Shown in pieces: positions 145-20,181 of a stretch of DNA of 26,838 nt. The position numbers and the translations under genes are program-made. The notes under the pieces are model-generated. The model had not been told where the DNA came from. It searched no databases and saw nothing but the letters and a program-made list of their open reading frames with translations. The first letter of the stretch is position 1, and the number at the start of each line of letters is the position of its first letter. The stretch comes from an uncultured Bacteroidales bacterium (GTDB lineage Bacteria > Bacteroidota > Bacteroidia > Bacteroidales > F082): the NCBI GenBank assembly GCA_905234765.1, contig CAJOIF010000033.1:1-26838 (forward strand), written 5' to 3'.

Positions 145-1318
145 ATGGCAAAAGAAAAATTCGAAAGAACTAAACCGCACGTCAACATTGGTACTATCGG
201 CCACGTTGACCACGGCAAGACCACTTTGACCGCTGCTATCACCCTGCACCTGGCCAAGAAGGGTCTTTCGGAAGTGAAGAGCTTCGACTCCATCGACTCC
301 GCTCCTGAAGAGAAAGAAAGAGGTATCACCATCAACACCGCTCACGTTGAGTATCAGACCGAGAAGCGTCACTATGCACACGTCGACTGCCCCGGCCACG
401 CTGACTACGTGAAGAACATGGTTACTGGTGCTGCCCAGATGGACGGTGCTATCATCGTTGTCGCCGCCACCGACGGTCCCATGCCTCAAACCCGTGAGCA
501 CATCCTGTGTGCCGCGCCTTGTGGTGTTCCTGAACAAGTGCGACCTCGTTGACGACGAAGAGTTGCTCGAATTGGTTGAGATGGAAATCCGCGACCTCCT
601 CGGCAAGTACGAATTCGATGCCGACAACACGCCTATCATCCGTGGCTCCGCTCTGGGTGCCCTGAATGATGACCCGAAGTGGACTGGCGCCATCGACGAA
701 CTGATGGATGCTTGCGACACTTGGATTCCTGAGCCTCAGCGTGCCGTTGATAAACCGTTCCTGATGCCTATCGAGGACGTGTTCTCCATCACTGGCCGTG
801 GTACCGTTGCTACTGGTCGTATCGAGACTGGCGTCATCCACGTTGGTGACCCCGTCGAAATCCTCGGTATGGGTGCTGAAAAGCTGAAGTCAGTTGTCAC
901 TGGTGTGGAAATGTTCCGCAAGATTTTGGACGAAGGTGAAGCTGGCGATAACGCTGGTCTGTTGCTCCGTGGTATCGACAAGGACGAAATCCGCCGTGGT
1001 ATGGTTATTGCCAAGCCCGGTTCGGTGAAGCCTTACCACCACTTCAAGGGTCAGGTTTACGTCCTGAGCAAAGAAGAAGGTGGCCGTCACACCCCGTTCC
1101 GTAACAAGTATCGTCCTCAGTTCTACTTCAGAACCACCGACGTTACTGGTGAAATCACCCTGCCCGACGGCATGGAGATGGTTATGCCTGGCGACCATGT
1201 CACCATCGACGTTAAGTTGATTGCCGACATCGCCATGGACAAGGGTCTCCGCTTCGCTATCCGTGAAGGTGGCCGTACCGTTGGTTCCGGTCAGGTGATC
1301 GAAATCATCGACGATTGA
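145..1318 (+). CDS. tuf: Elongation factor Tu, reading frame broken by a ~17-nt gap
   Basis: EF-Tu is the GTPase that delivers aminoacyl-tRNA to the ribosome. The first frame (from ATG 145) carries the P-loop GHVDHGKT at residues 19-26, the switch region with RGITI, DCPGH, and runs well to REHIL (codon ending at 507). It then goes out of frame and stops at 552. A second frame resumes at 509 with [12 protein letters not shown] (the NKxD guanine-binding motif) and continues through domains 2 and 3 to TGA 1316-1318. The family normally reads IL-LARQVG-VPRL here, so six codons are represented by one base: 17 nt are missing. Restoring them gives 396 codons, the usual length. Since EF-Tu is essential, I infer an assembly or consensus error unless another intact tuf exists. 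It lies downstream of tRNA-Thr and ends at a strong terminator. Confidence 0.95.
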
Positions 1319-14184: not shown

Positions 14185-15639
14185 ATGGCGAATTCTGTAA
14201 AACATCATGGCAGAGTGTATACTCCAGACTATCTTGTTCGGACTATACTCGATTTTGGCAACTACAATGGGAAAGACATTGTGGGAAAGCACGTCATTGA
14301 CAATAGTTGTGGTGATGGGGCTTTTCTCAAAGAAATCGTTAAACGATATTGTTCTGTTTTTCTTGAACACAACTCTGATTTGCCCAAGTTGAAATCTGAC
14401 TTGGAGACACACATTCATGGCATTGAATTGGATGCTGACGAATGTAAGTCTTGCATCCAAAACCTTGACGAAGTTGTGGCAGGATTTGGTTTGACAGAAA
14501 CACATTGGGATATCATCAATGCAGATACTTTGGCAATAGACCAATTCCATGGCAAGATGGATTTCGTTTTTGGAAACCCACCATACGTTCGTGTCCACAA
14601 TCTTGAAAGCAGTTATGATGCGGTGAAAAAGTATCGTTTTGCTGAACAGGGCATGACGGATTTGTTCATTGTATTTTTCGAAATAGGCTTCAATATGCTA
14701 TCGAAAGATGGAATTATGTGTTTAATTACACCAAGTTCATGGCTGGGAAGCAAAGCAGGAAAAATTCTTCGAATGTATATTAAGCAGCATATGAATTTGT
14801 CAGGGTTGATTGATTTGGAGCATTTTCAGCCATTTGAAGCGACAACGTACACATTGATATCAAGATTTCAAAGGCCGCAAACTTTTGAAAAGATTGAATA
14901 CAACAATTTCGATGGAACAAATCTGACCAAACAATTCCAATGTTTTCTTTCATTGGAAGAAATAAGCATTGGCGATTGTTTCTGTTTGGCAAATAATGAG
15001 AAACTGTCGGAATTAAGGGAAATCAAAATGGGGTATTCACATCGATATGTATCTGTGAAAAATGGCTTTGCGACTTTGGCAGACAAGGTTTTCATAGGTG
15101 ATTTTGATTTTACTGAAGGAACCATAGATGTCCTTAAAGCCTCAACGGGTAAATGGAGCAGATGTATCTATCCTTATGACAATCAAGGGAAACCATTATC
15201 ATTGGAAGAATTGAAGAAATACAAGTTGGCATATCAACATTTGTTGTCAAATGCAGACAAACTCACAAAAGACAGGGACATTGCAGACGACCAATACTGG
15301 TATTTGTTCGGCAGGACGCAGGCATTGAAAGATGTTTCAAAGATGAAGTTTGCCATTAATACCATCATCAAAGACCAAGTCAGTATTAAACTCGAAAAGG
15401 TGCCAGAAGGGGAAGGCCTTTATAGTGGACTGTATATCCTTACAGAAATAGAGTTTGAAGAAATAGAGCAACTTGTTCGTTCCGAGGATTTTATCGATTA
15501 CATCAAATCGTTGAAAAACTATAAAAGCGGAGGATATTACACTTTCGCTTCAAAAGATTTAGAGCAATACTTGAATTACAAATTAACCGAAAAATATGGA
15601 CAATCAAGAATTTCTGACAGTCGTAGGAAACTCTTTTAA
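14185..15639 (+). CDS. Type II N6-adenine DNA methyltransferase (gamma class)
   Basis: The protein transfers methyl groups from S-adenosylmethionine to adenine in a DNA target and protects the chromosome from the partner nuclease. Its 484 residues run in the gamma order. Motif X-like VYTPDYLVRTIL is at about 11-22, the SAM-binding motif I VIDNSCGDGAFL at 37-48, and catalytic NPPY at 131-134. FVFGNPPYVRVH is typical of the Eco57I/TaqI-like group. A long C-terminal part probably holds the target recognition domain; the site cannot be read from it. A conserved-looking LITPSSWLGSKAGKILR segment (about 181-197) follows motif IV. The last 44 nt overlap the nuclease gene in another frame, implying coupled translation. 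Base composition is clearly AT-richer than the polymerase genes, suggesting acquisition by transfer. Confidence 0.92.
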   Translation: MANSVKHHGRVYTPDYLVRTILDFGNYNGKDIVGKHVIDNSCGDGAFLKEIVKRYCSVFLEHNSDLPKLKSDLETHIHGIELDADECKSCIQNLDEVVAGFGLTETHWDIINADTLAIDQFHGKMDFVFGNPPYVRVHNLESSYDAVKKYRFAEQGMTDLFIVFFEIGFNMLSKDGIMCLITPSSWLGSKAGKILRMYIKQHMNLSGLIDLEHFQPFEATTYTLISRFQRPQTFEKIEYNNFDGTNLTKQFQCFLSLEEISIGDCFCLANNEKLSELREIKMGYSHRYVSVKNGFATLADKVFIGDFDFTEGTIDVLKASTGKWSRCIYPYDNQGKPLSLEELKKYKLAYQHLLSNADKLTKDRDIADDQYWYLFGRTQALKDVSKMKFAINTIIKDQVSIKLEKVPEGEGLYSGLYILTEIEFEEIEQLVRSEDFIDYIKSLKNYKSGGYYTFASKDLEQYLNYKLTEKYGQSRISDSRRKLF

Positions 15640-16303
15640 AAAGTTTCTCGAAACAGGGTCACGCAGCAACGAAAAACTAAAAATCTTGCACGGGGCTATA
15701 GCAAAAGACCTGAAAGAGCGCTTGGGAACAGGCTATACGGTTTGTTCCTTGGGCATTGGCAATGGAAAAGAAGAAAAGCTCGATGGGCGTTATATTGACA
15801 AAGTCGTTGACATTACGATCAAAAAAGGGCAAAAATCAATCGCTGGAATCGGAGTAAAATTTGTTATGCAAAACTACTCACAAAACTCGAACAACTACTT
15901 TGAGAATATGCTCGGTGAAACAGCCAATATTCGTTGCGCTAACATTCCGTATTTCCAAATCTTTATCATCCCTGACACCTTGCCTTACTACAACAAACAA
16001 GGCTTGCTTCAAAAGTGGGAAGAGTTTACTATTCATAATGCCATAAAGTATCTAACACTTTCGGAAGACAACATTCAGACCTCGATTCACACTCCGACTA
16101 AGACCTTGCTTTTTGTAATCCATCTGCCTGAAATCAAGAAACCTATCGCAGATAAGTATGACTATGTGAATTATTATGAGAGCCAAACTGATTTCATGGT
16201 TTGTGAATCACAAACGGAATACGGTGAGTTTTCATCGGCGGTGGTATTTAACGATTATGAGGATTTTGTTAACAAAGTAGTGCATTATATTCATTTTATG
16301 TAA
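15596..16303 (+). CDS. Putative type II restriction endonuclease
   Basis: The 235-residue protein lies where a cognate nuclease would be, with its ATG 44 nt inside the end of the methyltransferase gene. A PD-(D/E)xK-like core may be formed by GRYIDKVVDITI (about residues 64-75) and the following GIGVKFVMQNYSQNSNNYFENMLGE (about 82-106), where acidic residues and Lys could bind metal. I cannot fix the catalytic residues with confidence and do not recognise a named subfamily or recognition site. The overlap makes nuclease production depend on prior methyltransferase translation, a common safety arrangement. No frame lesion is visible, so the system may be active. Confidence 0.75.
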   Translation: MDNQEFLTVVGNSFKKFLETGSRSNEKLKILHGAIAKDLKERLGTGYTVCSLGIGNGKEEKLDGRYIDKVVDITIKKGQKSIAGIGVKFVMQNYSQNSNNYFENMLGETANIRCANIPYFQIFIIPDTLPYYNKQGLLQKWEEFTIHNAIKYLTLSEDNIQTSIHTPTKTLLFVIHLPEIKKPIADKYDYVNYYESQTDFMVCESQTEYGEFSSAVVFNDYEDFVNKVVHYIHFM

Positions 16304-17982: not shown

Positions 17983-18903
17983 TTACTTGAGTCCTAGGAT
18001 GGATGCTATAAGTGCTTGTCTTGCATAAACTCCGTTTTGTGCCTGTTGGAAGTAGTAGGCCTTCGGGTTGGCGTCCACATCCACATGGATTTCGTTGACG
18101 CGCGGCAGCGGGTGCAGCACGCGGCAGTTGGGCTTGGAGTTCTCCAACATGGCATTGCGCAACACATAGGAGTTCTTCACCTTCTCGTATTCCTCGGGGT
18201 CGGGGAAACGCTCGCGCTGGATTCGGGTCATGTAGATGATGTCGGAGTGGGGGATGGCCTCCTCTAACTCAGTGTATTGGTGGTATTCGAGGTTTCTGTC
18301 CTTGATGTGTTGCTTCACGACGCTGGGCAGCTTCAATTCGACGGGCGAGACGAGGTTGAACTTGGCGTTGAAGTGGCACATGGCCTCGACGAGGCTGTGG
18401 ACGGTGCGGCCATATTTCAGGTCACCGACGAGGGTGATTTCAAGGTTTTCCAAAGTGCCTTGCGTCTTGCGGATGCTGTAAAGGTCGAGCATGCATTGGG
18501 TAGGGTGCTGGTTGGCACCATCTCCTGCATTGATGACGGGTACTTTCGACACTTCAGAAGCGAAGCGTGCCGAGCCTTCGATGGGGTTGCGCATGACGAT
18601 GAGGTCGGCGTAGCTGGCCACCATCGTGATGGTGTCGGCCAACGACTCGCCCTTCTGAATGCTTGTTCCAGCCGTGCTGCTGAAGCCGATGACGTTGCCG
18701 CCCAAGAGTTGGATGGCGGTCTCGAAACTCAGGCGAGTACGTGTTGATGGCTCAAAGAACAGCGAGGCGATGATGCGGCCGTTCAGCAAGTTCTGGTGCG
18801 GGTTTTTCTCAAAGTCCTCGGCGATGTCCAAGACATGGCAGATTTCTTCGGGCGTGTAGTCGCTGATGGAAATCAGGCTGCGGTTTTTCAGTGATATTGA
18901 CAT
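17983..18903 (-). CDS. pyrB: Aspartate carbamoyltransferase catalytic subunit
   Basis: PyrB condenses carbamoyl phosphate with aspartate to carbamoyl aspartate, the first committed step of pyrimidine synthesis. The 306 residues are full length. [13 protein letters not shown] (about residues 49-61) is the carbamoyl-phosphate site. [36 protein letters not shown], the 220s-region [14 protein letters not shown] and HPLPRVNEI are also present. With pyrI next to it the enzyme should be the class B allosteric form. Its leader holds an apparent attenuator, described separately. Confidence 0.98.
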
Positions 18904-18915
18904 AGGCTTATCGTT

Positions 18916-19050
18916 TTAATTTGTTGTTTCGGCAAAAAAAAGACGGCCAACACTTTGGCCGCCAATATGGGGAATAAGAGAAATCAAGATAGTGGAATCG
19001 GCTGATTCCCAGCAAACAATCTTGTCCGATGACTTCAATAAGTATCTCAT
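18916..19050 (-). CDS. Candidate pyrBI leader peptide (44 residues)
   Basis: Starting at the first ATG after the predicted pyrB promoter, the frame encodes 44 residues (MRYLLKSS... to ...FFAETTN), runs through the terminator stem and its T run (read as GRLFFAE), and stops 12 nt before the pyrB start codon. The Escherichia coli PyrL leader peptide is also 44 residues and also crosses its terminator. The ATG lies only a few bases after the predicted transcription start and has no Shine-Dalgarno site, so translation would have to be near-leaderless. That is the weak point. The peptide has no resemblance to a folded family, as expected for a regulatory ORF. Confidence 0.45.
   Translation of the reverse strand: MRYLLKSSDKIVCWESADSTILISLIPHIGGQSVGRLFFAETTN
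18934..18961 (-). terminator. Intrinsic terminator in the pyrB leader (attenuator)
   Basis: On the minus strand CGGCCAA (18961-18955) pairs with TTGGCCG (18950-18944) around AGTG, followed by TC and eight T ending at 18934, about 30 nt before pyrB. An intrinsic terminator between a promoter and its first gene implies regulated read-through. Confidence 0.85.
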
Positions 19051-19055
19051 CGGAC
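18994..19055 (-). promoter_or_regulatory. Two upstream hairpins in the pyrB leader
   Basis: The first transcript hairpin pairs GTCCGATGA (19055-19047) with TCATCGGAC (19032-19024), nine perfect pairs around 14 nt, at the very 5' end. The second pairs GGAATC (19009-19004) with GATTCC (18999-18994) around AGCC. A U/C-rich stretch follows before the terminator stem. These could act as RNA polymerase pause signals, as in enterobacterial pyrBI attenuation (inference). Confidence 0.6.
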
Positions 19056-19057
19056 TG

Positions 19058-19065
19058 CAAATATA
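19058..19065 (-). promoter_or_regulatory. -7 promoter box for pyrB
   Basis: TATATTTG on the minus strand matches TAnnTTTG exactly. The -33 position is T-rich but not a clear TTTG. Transcription would start near 19053, giving a leader of about 150 nt before pyrB. Confidence 0.65.
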
Positions 19066-19196
19066 GGAAAACTTTTCAATAGGAAAGAAAAAAATCTTCC
19101 AAATCTCATTTTTAACCGCCGGCAATCAGACAACTTGGAGCATGGATGCAGGAAGCATCTGCAATTTGAGCAAAAGCATGGGTGGCGTTTTTTTTG

Positions 19197-19204
19197 TATC
19201 TTTG
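19197..19204 (+). promoter_or_regulatory. -7 promoter box for the DUF362 gene
   Basis: TATCTTTG matches TAnnTTTG and lies 14 nt before ATG 19219. It indicates a start at 19219 or 19228 rather than the upstream in-frame ATG at 19135, which would lie before the promoter. The -33 element is not clear. The interval 19066-19196 holds no other visible element. Confidence 0.65.
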
Positions 19205-19218
19205 CCGCAAATCAAACT

Positions 19219-20181
19219 ATGGACTATATGAAAAACAGCTCAAACGAACAAAAAGAAGCAGTCGTCTATCTGACCAAGGACATCAGTCCTGAAGGACTGG
19301 TCAATATCTATAAAGCACTCGGCGTTCCCGCCAAAGGGCGCGTGGCCATCAAAATGAGCACTGGTGAGGGCAGCAACCCAAACTATCTGAAGCCCGAACT
19401 CATCAAGGACTTAGTCTTTGAAGTCGATGGCACCATCGTGGAGTGCAACACCGCATACGGCAATGGCCCTGGCGACGAGCAGGACAACCGCGATACGTCG
19501 GCCAACCACTGGAAAGTCATCGAGCGACACGGCTTCACGCCCCTGTTCAAGGTGGACATCATGGATGAGGAGGGCGAGATGCGCATCCCCGTGCAAGATT
19601 CTACGCACCTCAAGTATGACATCGTGGGCGGCCACATGGCCAACTATGACTTCATGATTGCCCTCAACCACTTCAAAGGTCATCCGATGGGCGGTTACGG
19701 CGGCGCATTGAAGAACCTCTCTATCGGCTGCGCCAGTCCGAACGGCAAGGCCTATATTCACTCCTCAGGCAAGATGGAAGTGCTTGACATGGCCAAACTT
19801 TGGACGAAGGAATACATCGGTGATTAAGATGGCTTCCTCGAATCGATGGCCGCCGCTGCTCAAGCCGTGGTGGACTACTTCCAGAAAAAGGACGGCATCA
19901 TCTACATCAATGTGATGAACAACATGAGCATCGACTGCGACTGTGTTGACCACCCTGCCCCTGTGAAACTTGAAGACTACGGCATTTTGGCCTCCACCGA
20001 CCCCGTGGCCCTCGACCAGGCCTGTGTCGACATCATCAACAAACAGCAGGTAACGGCCACCAACGACCCCACCGACCTGCTCAGCCGCATTGACAAGCAG
20101 CACGGCGTCCATACTATCGAACACGCCGAAGCCATCGGTCTCGGCAGCCGCAAATACACAATTGTGAATATTGACGAATAA
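19219..20181 (+). pseudogene. DUF362 (COG2768-like) protein with an in-frame stop
   Basis: Both halves read in the same frame. Residues up to KLWTKEYIGD end at TAA 19825-19827, and the frame then continues DGFLESMAAAAQAVVDYF to the natural stop at 20179-20181. Together they give about 320 residues of a DUF362 protein. Family features include GEGSNPNYLKPELI, VECNTAYG, GGHMANYDFMIALNHFKGHPMGGYGGALKNLSIGCAS, and INVMNNMSIDCDC in the second half. The family is annotated as uncharacterised Fe-S-centre related; no reaction is established. The stop most likely replaces a Gln codon (CAA to TAA). TAA is a normal stop elsewhere in this window (rpoC, rplL), so general reassignment is excluded. The second fragment could start at ATG 19846 as a separate ORF, but this looks like a nonsense-mutated gene or a base error. 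Confidence 0.82.

Follow-up and report, generated by a model that had tools for sequence, protein, structure and literature searches.

The pyrL leader of Escherichia coli K-12 (L220) combines a 44-codon ORF that runs across an intrinsic terminator with a pyrimidine-rich stretch preceding this terminator, and is located directly before pyrBI. Attenuators of the trp/his type are built from a leader peptide and a terminator together with control codons and an antiterminator, and in the rph-pyrE attenuator of E. coli the terminator lies between a translated full gene and the pyr gene. For carA of E. coli, control by ArgR and reiterative transcription, among others, has been described (accessible part of PMC6245113). 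Within Bacteroidota, leader-peptide attenuation was proposed in Flavobacterium psychrophilum (accessible part of PMC9723704) and sORFs in 5' UTRs were described for Bacteroides thetaiotaomicron (PMC7366714); these cases belong to operons of amino-acid biosynthesis or to a hypothetical gene, and the accessible part of the latter report mentions no pyrBI leader. The main text of PMC9723704 contains neither 'pyrB' nor 'carA', and that of PMC2965389 neither 'pyrB' nor 'bacteroid'. As far as the open-licence literature was accessible to us, it contained no described pyrBI or carA equivalent in Bacteroidota, which is weak evidence of absence.

Here we analyzed a leader of pyrL-like layout upstream of pyrBI in a 26,838-nt stretch of Bacteroidales DNA (the window, i.e., the whole stretch under study). 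The parts listed in a preliminary description made from the letters alone (promoter box, two hairpins, U/C-rich stretch, terminator, ORF, and a 12-nt gap before pyrB) proved exact, all of them residing on the minus strand, and its comparison with pyrL was borne out at the level of layout, as the ORF passes through the terminator and the distances nearly coincide (detailed below). The arrangement is real and conserved and, judged by sequence comparison, is best read as a putative ribosome-dependent attenuator that would resemble pyrL in logic and dimensions. It is composed of the following features:

19065-19058, minus strand: TAnnTTTG -7 promoter box, TATATTTG (sequence; same box-ATG spacing in 55 of 55 usable near relatives)
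~19053 (+/- 2 nt), minus strand: predicted transcription start (from the box position of -12 to -5, accessible part of PMC9723704)
19055-19024, minus strand: 5'-terminal hairpin of 9 bp, arms 19055-19047 and 19032-19024, leader start codon in the 5' arm (fold and partner-swap comparison)
19050-18916, minus strand: leader ORF of 44 codons plus TAA, ATG at 19050, stop codon 18918-18916, peptide MRYLLKSSDKIVCWESADSTILISLIPHIGGQSVGRLFFAETTN (sequence; frame conserved in relatives)
19009-18994, minus strand: second hairpin GGAATC/GATTCC of 6 bp, possibly a pause hairpin (fold)
18993-18964, minus strand: U/C-rich tract, proposed UTP-sensitive pause region (base composition)
18963-18942, minus strand: intrinsic terminator stem-loop with a 9-bp stem (fold, terminator scan)
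18941-18934, minus strand: terminator T8 tract (sequence)
18903-17983, minus strand: pyrB, aspartate carbamoyltransferase catalytic chain (Pfam and NCBIfam)
17966-17391, minus strand: pyrI, aspartate carbamoyltransferase regulatory chain (Pfam and NCBIfam)

Transcription in F. psychrophilum starts 5 nt past the box, which there spans positions -12 to -5 (accessible part of PMC9723704). In the window, box and leader ATG are separated by a 7-nt spacer (CAGTCCG), and the predicted 5' UTR amounts to about 3 nt. The 5' hairpin begins within 1-2 nt of the predicted start and would retain about 7 of its 9 bp if +1 is at ~19053. After crossing the terminator, the ORF stops 12 nt (18915-18904) ahead of the pyrB ATG at 18903. 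The 30-nt U/C-rich tract consists of 50% T and 27% C with only 3% G. The terminator stem has a calculated stability of -15.3 kcal/mol that was matched by 0 of 200 shuffles, and the whole leader is likewise more stable than its dinucleotide shuffles (z -3.1, equalled by 2 of 200). Two terminator-like sites, the leader terminator included, were found between 18500 and 19500, compared with 1.0 in shuffles; a sigma-70-type scan of the same interval yielded no promoter. No family of Rfam 15 matched the leader at gathering score (best leader match 23.6 bits, cut-off 60), the only matches in the window being two tRNAs; an Rfam leader or riboswitch was rejected on these grounds.

Elsewhere in the window, a gene at 145-1318 (plus strand), which we take to be EF-Tu-like, is split across two overlapping frames (145-552 and 428-1318) by a frameshift or an assembly error. 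The gene divergent from pyrB (19135-20181, plus strand) is split by a TAA into 19135-19827 and 19846-20181 and may be a pseudogene or reflect a sequence error. An ORF with an NPPY motif at 14185-16303 (plus strand), presumably DNA methyltransferase-like, overlaps a second ORF, the two possibly forming a restriction-modification pair.

The open frame at pyrB and carA in relatives

Taken alone, the open frame of the window is not significant: 42% of the dinucleotide shuffles of the leader give some ORF leading from an early ATG to the terminator, and 14% of its mononucleotide shuffles keep the fixed frame open past the T tract. The claim therefore needed testing on relatives, and it is from these, not from the window, that the significance of the ORF comes. 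The near set was taken from the 80 best-scoring loci of a genome scan (L001-L080), whose titles read Bacteroidales, Bacteroidia or a taxon belonging to them; nearly all are metagenome-assembled, many of them from ruminants. The F082-type group, labeled after the title of L062, comprises 62 loci (L001-L060, L062 and the window). Box and terminator were both found in 55 of them, window included, the remainder being excluded owing to contig ends (L017, L031), a missing leader terminator (L020, L022, L034, L035) or a position of pyrB behind an upstream gene (L038); L073 and L078 stand outside the 55 although their ATG is also at 7 nt, and the terminator of L071 was set by hand. Without exception, the first ATG of the 55 leaders is found exactly 7 nt past the box and opens an ORF that reaches the terminator, the earliest stop lying 11 nt ahead of the stem (L036) and the latest 105 nt past its start. 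Of 52 distinct leaders, 51 keep frame 0 open as far as the stem; the corresponding numbers are 1 for frame 1, 26 for frame 2 and 14.7 for shuffles, bearing in mind that the leaders share kinship and that counts across them are thus not independent. L020, L022, L034 and L035 represent natural losses, with the terminator or the entire leader gone and the TAnnTTTG box directly before pyrB.

Several features that the preliminary description had expected to be constant turned out to vary. ORF lengths in the 55 leaders range from 12 to 64 codons, so that the exact match to 44 codons looks coincidental, and in place of a conserved stop position we found stops scattered over a range that begins 70 nt ahead of the pyrB ATG and ends 31 nt past it. 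The leader peptides differ from clade to clade; as spacer lengths differ by non-multiples of three, the reading frame across the terminator varies by clade too, and is still open. The anticipated bias toward synonymous substitutions was absent: in a codon-substitution test on the two equal-length groups with the most members, 21% (versus 29% and 27%) and 29% (versus 20% and 28%) of the single changes in frame 0 were synonymous, giving no excess. The case for coding is thus made solely by the openness of the frame.

At the level of the order, pyrB (E 1e-70 or better) was detected in 363 of 393 sampled genomes. Upstream DNA was compared at 198 pyrB loci, 105 of which stem from the better-scoring part of the order sample, meaning that distant genomes are under-sampled; L081 and L111-L114 were left out as repeats or duplicates. 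Sixty-five loci had no terminator within 120 nt, 74 fell into an upstream-gene class (a frame of at least 70 codons ending near the terminator), one was cut off, and 58 displayed a TAnnTTTG box plus terminator. In 57 of these 58 leaders (13.5 expected), an early ATG opens an ORF that extends to the terminator or to within 12 nt of it, and outside the F082-type group this holds for 12 of 13, some of which are closely related. An open frame up to or across the terminator is conserved among near and wider pyrB leaders, in excess of the shuffle expectation. Leaders that keep the terminator and lose the ORF, named in the preliminary description as counterevidence, were confined to L186 among the 58, and none occurred in the two 24-leader family sets described below, where a looser rule applied.

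The class of 74 includes thirteen misplaced leader-type loci that are not counted among the 58 (L002, L003, L004, L010, L041, L042, L054, L056, L060, L062, L065, L072 and L078). A finer count gives 60 loci with an upstream gene, whose stop usually precedes the stem by 5-18 nt (range -28 to +12); at 28 of these 60 loci, pyrB follows after at most 50 nt that are devoid of a TAnnTTTG. The upstream gene at such loci (e.g., L121, L122, L130) commonly encodes a protein of 440-455 aa with at best a weak cobW-type match: Pfam analysis of two such proteins gave one weak cobW-type match above and one below the cut-off, and the single one scanned against NCBIfam had no match. The succession of upstream gene, terminator and pyrB is only suggestive of a possible rph-pyrE-like attenuation, since stop codons just before terminators are common at gene ends.

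The second operon with leaders of this kind, carA, had escaped the preliminary description and is new relative to pyrL. In two (G007 and G008) of seven genomes searched for it, carA passed the family cut-off, and both carry a pyrB-type leader before it; at pyrE, no such leader was recognized by reading the upstream DNA in seven sister genomes. In G001, G003, G005, G006 and G009, no carA was found above the family cut-off although pyrBI is present; contigs may be missing, but all five agree. Within the G007 family, carA was at threshold in 30 of 41 genomes, and we compared 28 carA upstream regions, 27 from this family plus the added L229 from G008, leaving out the carA fragments L300-L302.

Upstream of carA: leaders of the same design, L229, L230, L275-L280, L282, L283, L286-L299

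Box and terminator are present in 24 of the 28 carA regions and in 24 of 26 pyrB regions of the family, and the ORF reaches the terminator in 24 of 24 (8.9 expected) and 24 of 24 cases (6.4 expected), respectively. Terminators were missing at L281, L285 (carA) and L305 (pyrB), and no box was in range at L274, L284 (carA) and L321 (pyrB); L303, L308 and L323 repeat L060, L061 and L065. The rule for the family sets was adopted after L229 had failed the stricter one used for the 58 leaders, with shuffles evaluated under the same looser rule: the distance allowed between scan start and ATG was 55 nt (previously 45), the stop could precede the stem by as much as 15 nt (previously 12), ORFs needed at least 9 codons (previously 10), and the box was T[AG]nnTTTG. 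Relative to the stem start, the carA stops range from -16 to +84 nt. Seven of the 24 carA ORFs end 1-16 nt short of the stem, and four are only 10-15 codons long. Stops of the family pyrB leaders range from -65 to +29 nt around the pyrB ATG, and the leader stop overlaps the gene ATG in 9 of 24 carA and 3 of 24 family pyrB leaders. The stem pattern GACGG-N6-CCGTC-T7 gave 30 matches in 21 of 42 family genomes (17 at pyrB, 11 at carA, 2 elsewhere) and was never found in these genomes in its reversed form. Outside the family, 29 carA loci (L245-L273) from 59 further matching genomes revealed no pyrB-type leader by the ungapped terminator rule, which identified a terminator only at L259, behind an upstream gene; upstream of carA at L251 and L256, terminator-like hairpins missed by this rule were seen by reading. 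The putative attenuator design is thus common to two pyrimidine operons in part of the Bacteroidales.

The 5'-terminal hairpin and the near-leaderless start

The first 42 nt of the 55 near leaders fold with a mean z of -1.6 (40 below -1), and the 5' folds of the family sets have mean z values of -1.8 (24 pyrB) and -1.0 (25 carA), with a 5'-end stem in 22 and 18 leaders, respectively. For a partner-swap test, 94 leaders were thinned to 55 according to similarity. Pairing of the first 8 nt was stronger within a leader than with the downstream regions of other leaders (13.6 versus 11.5), a value reached in 0 of 2000 permutations, which supports the hairpin of the preliminary description as a pairing with its own partner. 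Its arms covary, as illustrated by UCCGAAC/GUUCGGA in L278 and CCUGAAC/GUUCAGG in L277. The hairpin is weak or absent in some leaders, e.g., L047, L054 and L324, and the second hairpin, as seen by reading, is weakened or missing in several relatives. The AUG belongs to the 5' arm in F082-type leaders; elsewhere it occupies the 3' arm or the loop, or follows directly after the hairpin. In L014, L030, L032, L036 and several more, the AUG is kept while its A is unpaired and faces a C, as would be predicted for an AUG required in its own right.

The near-leaderless translation start that the preliminary description had pointed out is in line with the ATG positioned 7 nt past the box and a predicted 5' UTR of about 3 nt. 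We searched 60 family genomes for the box followed by a pyrimidine-rich N7 and ATGA; six of the 17 matches are pyrB leaders by position. Among eight matched stretches examined, one is a pyrB leader, and 4 of the 7 others start a long ORF at that ATG, namely BamD-type genes (L221, L222), a MatE gene (L223) and a urea transporter gene (L228); L224 has a short ORF, and L225 and L227 contain nothing clear. When long ORFs with a box within 40 nt were considered at the loci collected here, 16 of 73 start at most 9 nt from the box. There is no general peak at 7 nt, a distance seen for 4 of the 73, three of which had been chosen for that pattern. According to the accessible parts of the respective reports, 3.7% of 5' UTRs in B. 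thetaiotaomicron are shorter than 10 nt (PMC7366714), and 5.5% are leaderless in F. psychrophilum (PMC9723704). Near-leaderless mRNAs are thus a minority in Bacteroidota; this and the missing peak at 7 nt count against the attenuator reading.

Sensing, proposed mechanism and alternative readings

In 42 long F082-type leaders, T and G make up on average 48% and 7% of the 30 nt preceding the stem; by a slightly different count, 37 long F082-type leaders have 49% T, compared with 27% before 47 other terminators at the same loci. The U-rich tract is also found in other lineages (L061, L071, L072). At pyrB of the wider family, T is modestly enriched before the stem (0.43 versus 0.37, p 0.005), at carA it is not (0.37 versus 0.37, p 0.46, 16 controls), and ten short leaders, having 4-24% T in the 25 nt before the stem, lack the tract. 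UTP control is plausible, and sensing at the U/C-rich tract is therefore likely for the window and for most near pyrB leaders, those in which the tract is strong; this reading is not carried over to the rest.

Other sensors were considered as well. None of 12 pyrBI genomes (the genome of the window not being among them) yielded a PyrR, while the same search succeeded in the query's own genome and one known carrier; control by PyrR was rejected on this basis. Ungapped complementarity to the 5' arm of the terminator, as would be expected of an antiterminator, was 10.9 versus 12.4 in shuffles, with 12 of 52 leaders above expectation. Amino-acid attenuation was rejected, since the peptides inspected lack a series of control codons and the search for an antiterminator was negative.

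We consider it likely that the locus is a ribosome-coupled, UTP-responsive transcription attenuator of pyrBI that is relieved by the arrival of a ribosome. Transcription would start just ahead of the near-leaderless 44-codon ORF. With pyrimidine nucleotides plentiful, RNA polymerase would outrun the leading ribosome, the terminator would fold, and most transcripts would stop before pyrB. When UTP is short, the polymerase would pause in the U/C-rich tract ahead of the terminator, allowing the ribosome to catch up, to cover the 5' arm of the terminator and thereby to permit read-through into pyrBI. The 5' hairpin may slow initiation on the leader or set a first pause. Ribosome arrival alone would matter, independent of the peptide or particular codons: given that the peptide lacks conservation, that there is no preference for synonymous changes and that no antiterminator was found, it is transit of the ribosome that seems to be decisive. 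Translation of the ORF, coupling of transcription and translation, UTP as the signal and the role of the 5' hairpin are inferred.

The open frame might instead serve to attract ribosomes that reinitiate at pyrB or carA, with the terminator being incidental or constitutive. For leader genes of Bacteroidetes, a peak of this distance at 11-14 nt has been reported (accessible part of PMC4833913), which agrees with the 12 nt between stop and pyrB, and the overlaps of leader stop and gene ATG at carA and pyrB would suit such a function as well. We nevertheless regard it as improbable, because the stops are scattered on both sides of the pyrB ATG in the near and family leaders alike and several ORFs end at or within the terminator, far from the gene, the constant feature being that they reach the terminator. 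Somewhat less doubtful, yet still unlikely, is a coupled attenuator that responds to a signal other than UTP (CTP, general translation speed or leader initiation) by means of the 5' hairpin at the start codon. This would accommodate those ten leaders without a U-rich tract and its lack of enrichment at carA, as well as the occurrence of the hairpin at both operons with the AUG in either arm, in the loop or just after it; at odds with it are the strong tract in most near pyrB leaders, its presence in other lineages and the leaders whose 5' hairpin is weak or missing. That the leader acts as a protein- or metabolite-bound RNA switch, the ORF being coincidental, appears very improbable to us: the hairpins do exceed shuffles in stability, but there is no Rfam family at gathering score, no PyrR in the 12 genomes and no antiterminator pairing by the ungapped test, and the ORF shows conservation (51 of 52 distinct leaders, 57 of 58 in the wider sample).

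Beyond the ribosome-coupled attenuator of pyrBI, we tentatively envisage, as an idea we would hold to be rather doubtful in its full extent, a repressor-free regulon of pyrBI and carA that is controlled by coupling and arose independently of pyrL in bacteria without Shine-Dalgarno starts; the 5' hairpin holding or abutting the start codon might here act as a kinetic gate, such that only a slow polymerase lets the ribosome load before closure. Attenuation of such a type requires a ribosome close behind RNA polymerase. Among the matches listed, as far as their titles and the beginnings of their abstracts go, there were no tests of transcription-translation coupling in Bacteroidota; a leader that is open in many lineages and at two operons would be an indirect sign of coupling there and could provide a natural reporter for it. 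If true, the mechanism would also suggest how pyrimidine genes are controlled where no PyrR was found.

Comparison with pyrL and other attenuators

The leader shares with trp/his-type attenuators the combination of leader peptide and terminator, and differs from them by the lack of both a run of control codons and antiterminator pairing. An upstream gene plus terminator before pyrB, as at 60 of the 198 loci, is akin to rph-pyrE, where, unlike in the window leader, the translated element is a full gene. The carA genes of the sister genomes are preceded by a pyrL-like leader, which sets them apart from the control of E. coli carA.

The closest match remains pyrL. The distance from ATG to stem is 87 nt in the window and 90 nt in pyrL, the stop is found at +45 and +42 from the stem start, and the stem end is 38 and 32 nt away from pyrB. 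In contrast, the pyrL peptide and the leader peptide of the window gave no local alignment at E 100 or better, for which reason homology to enterobacterial pyrL was rejected. pyrL has a GGAGG before its ATG, which we take to be the Shine-Dalgarno sequence, and an AATTTG near the start region, presumably the start site in E. coli; at the corresponding place the window has CAGTCCG, with neither a Shine-Dalgarno-type nor an AATTTG-type start on reading. With both peptide homology and a Shine-Dalgarno start having failed, membership in pyrL is not claimed. The preliminary description had left it open whether the likeness to pyrL reflects convergence or conservation; the missing peptide alignment and AATTTG-type start speak against conservation and make convergence more likely. 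The leader thus apparently has an origin separate from pyrL, and, if our reading is true, the solution embodied by pyrL was reached a second time. New relative to pyrL are the 5'-terminal hairpin around the start codon, with the ATG of the window lying inside it, the near-leaderless start, 7 nt past the box with a predicted 5' UTR of about 3 nt, and the use of the design at a second operon.
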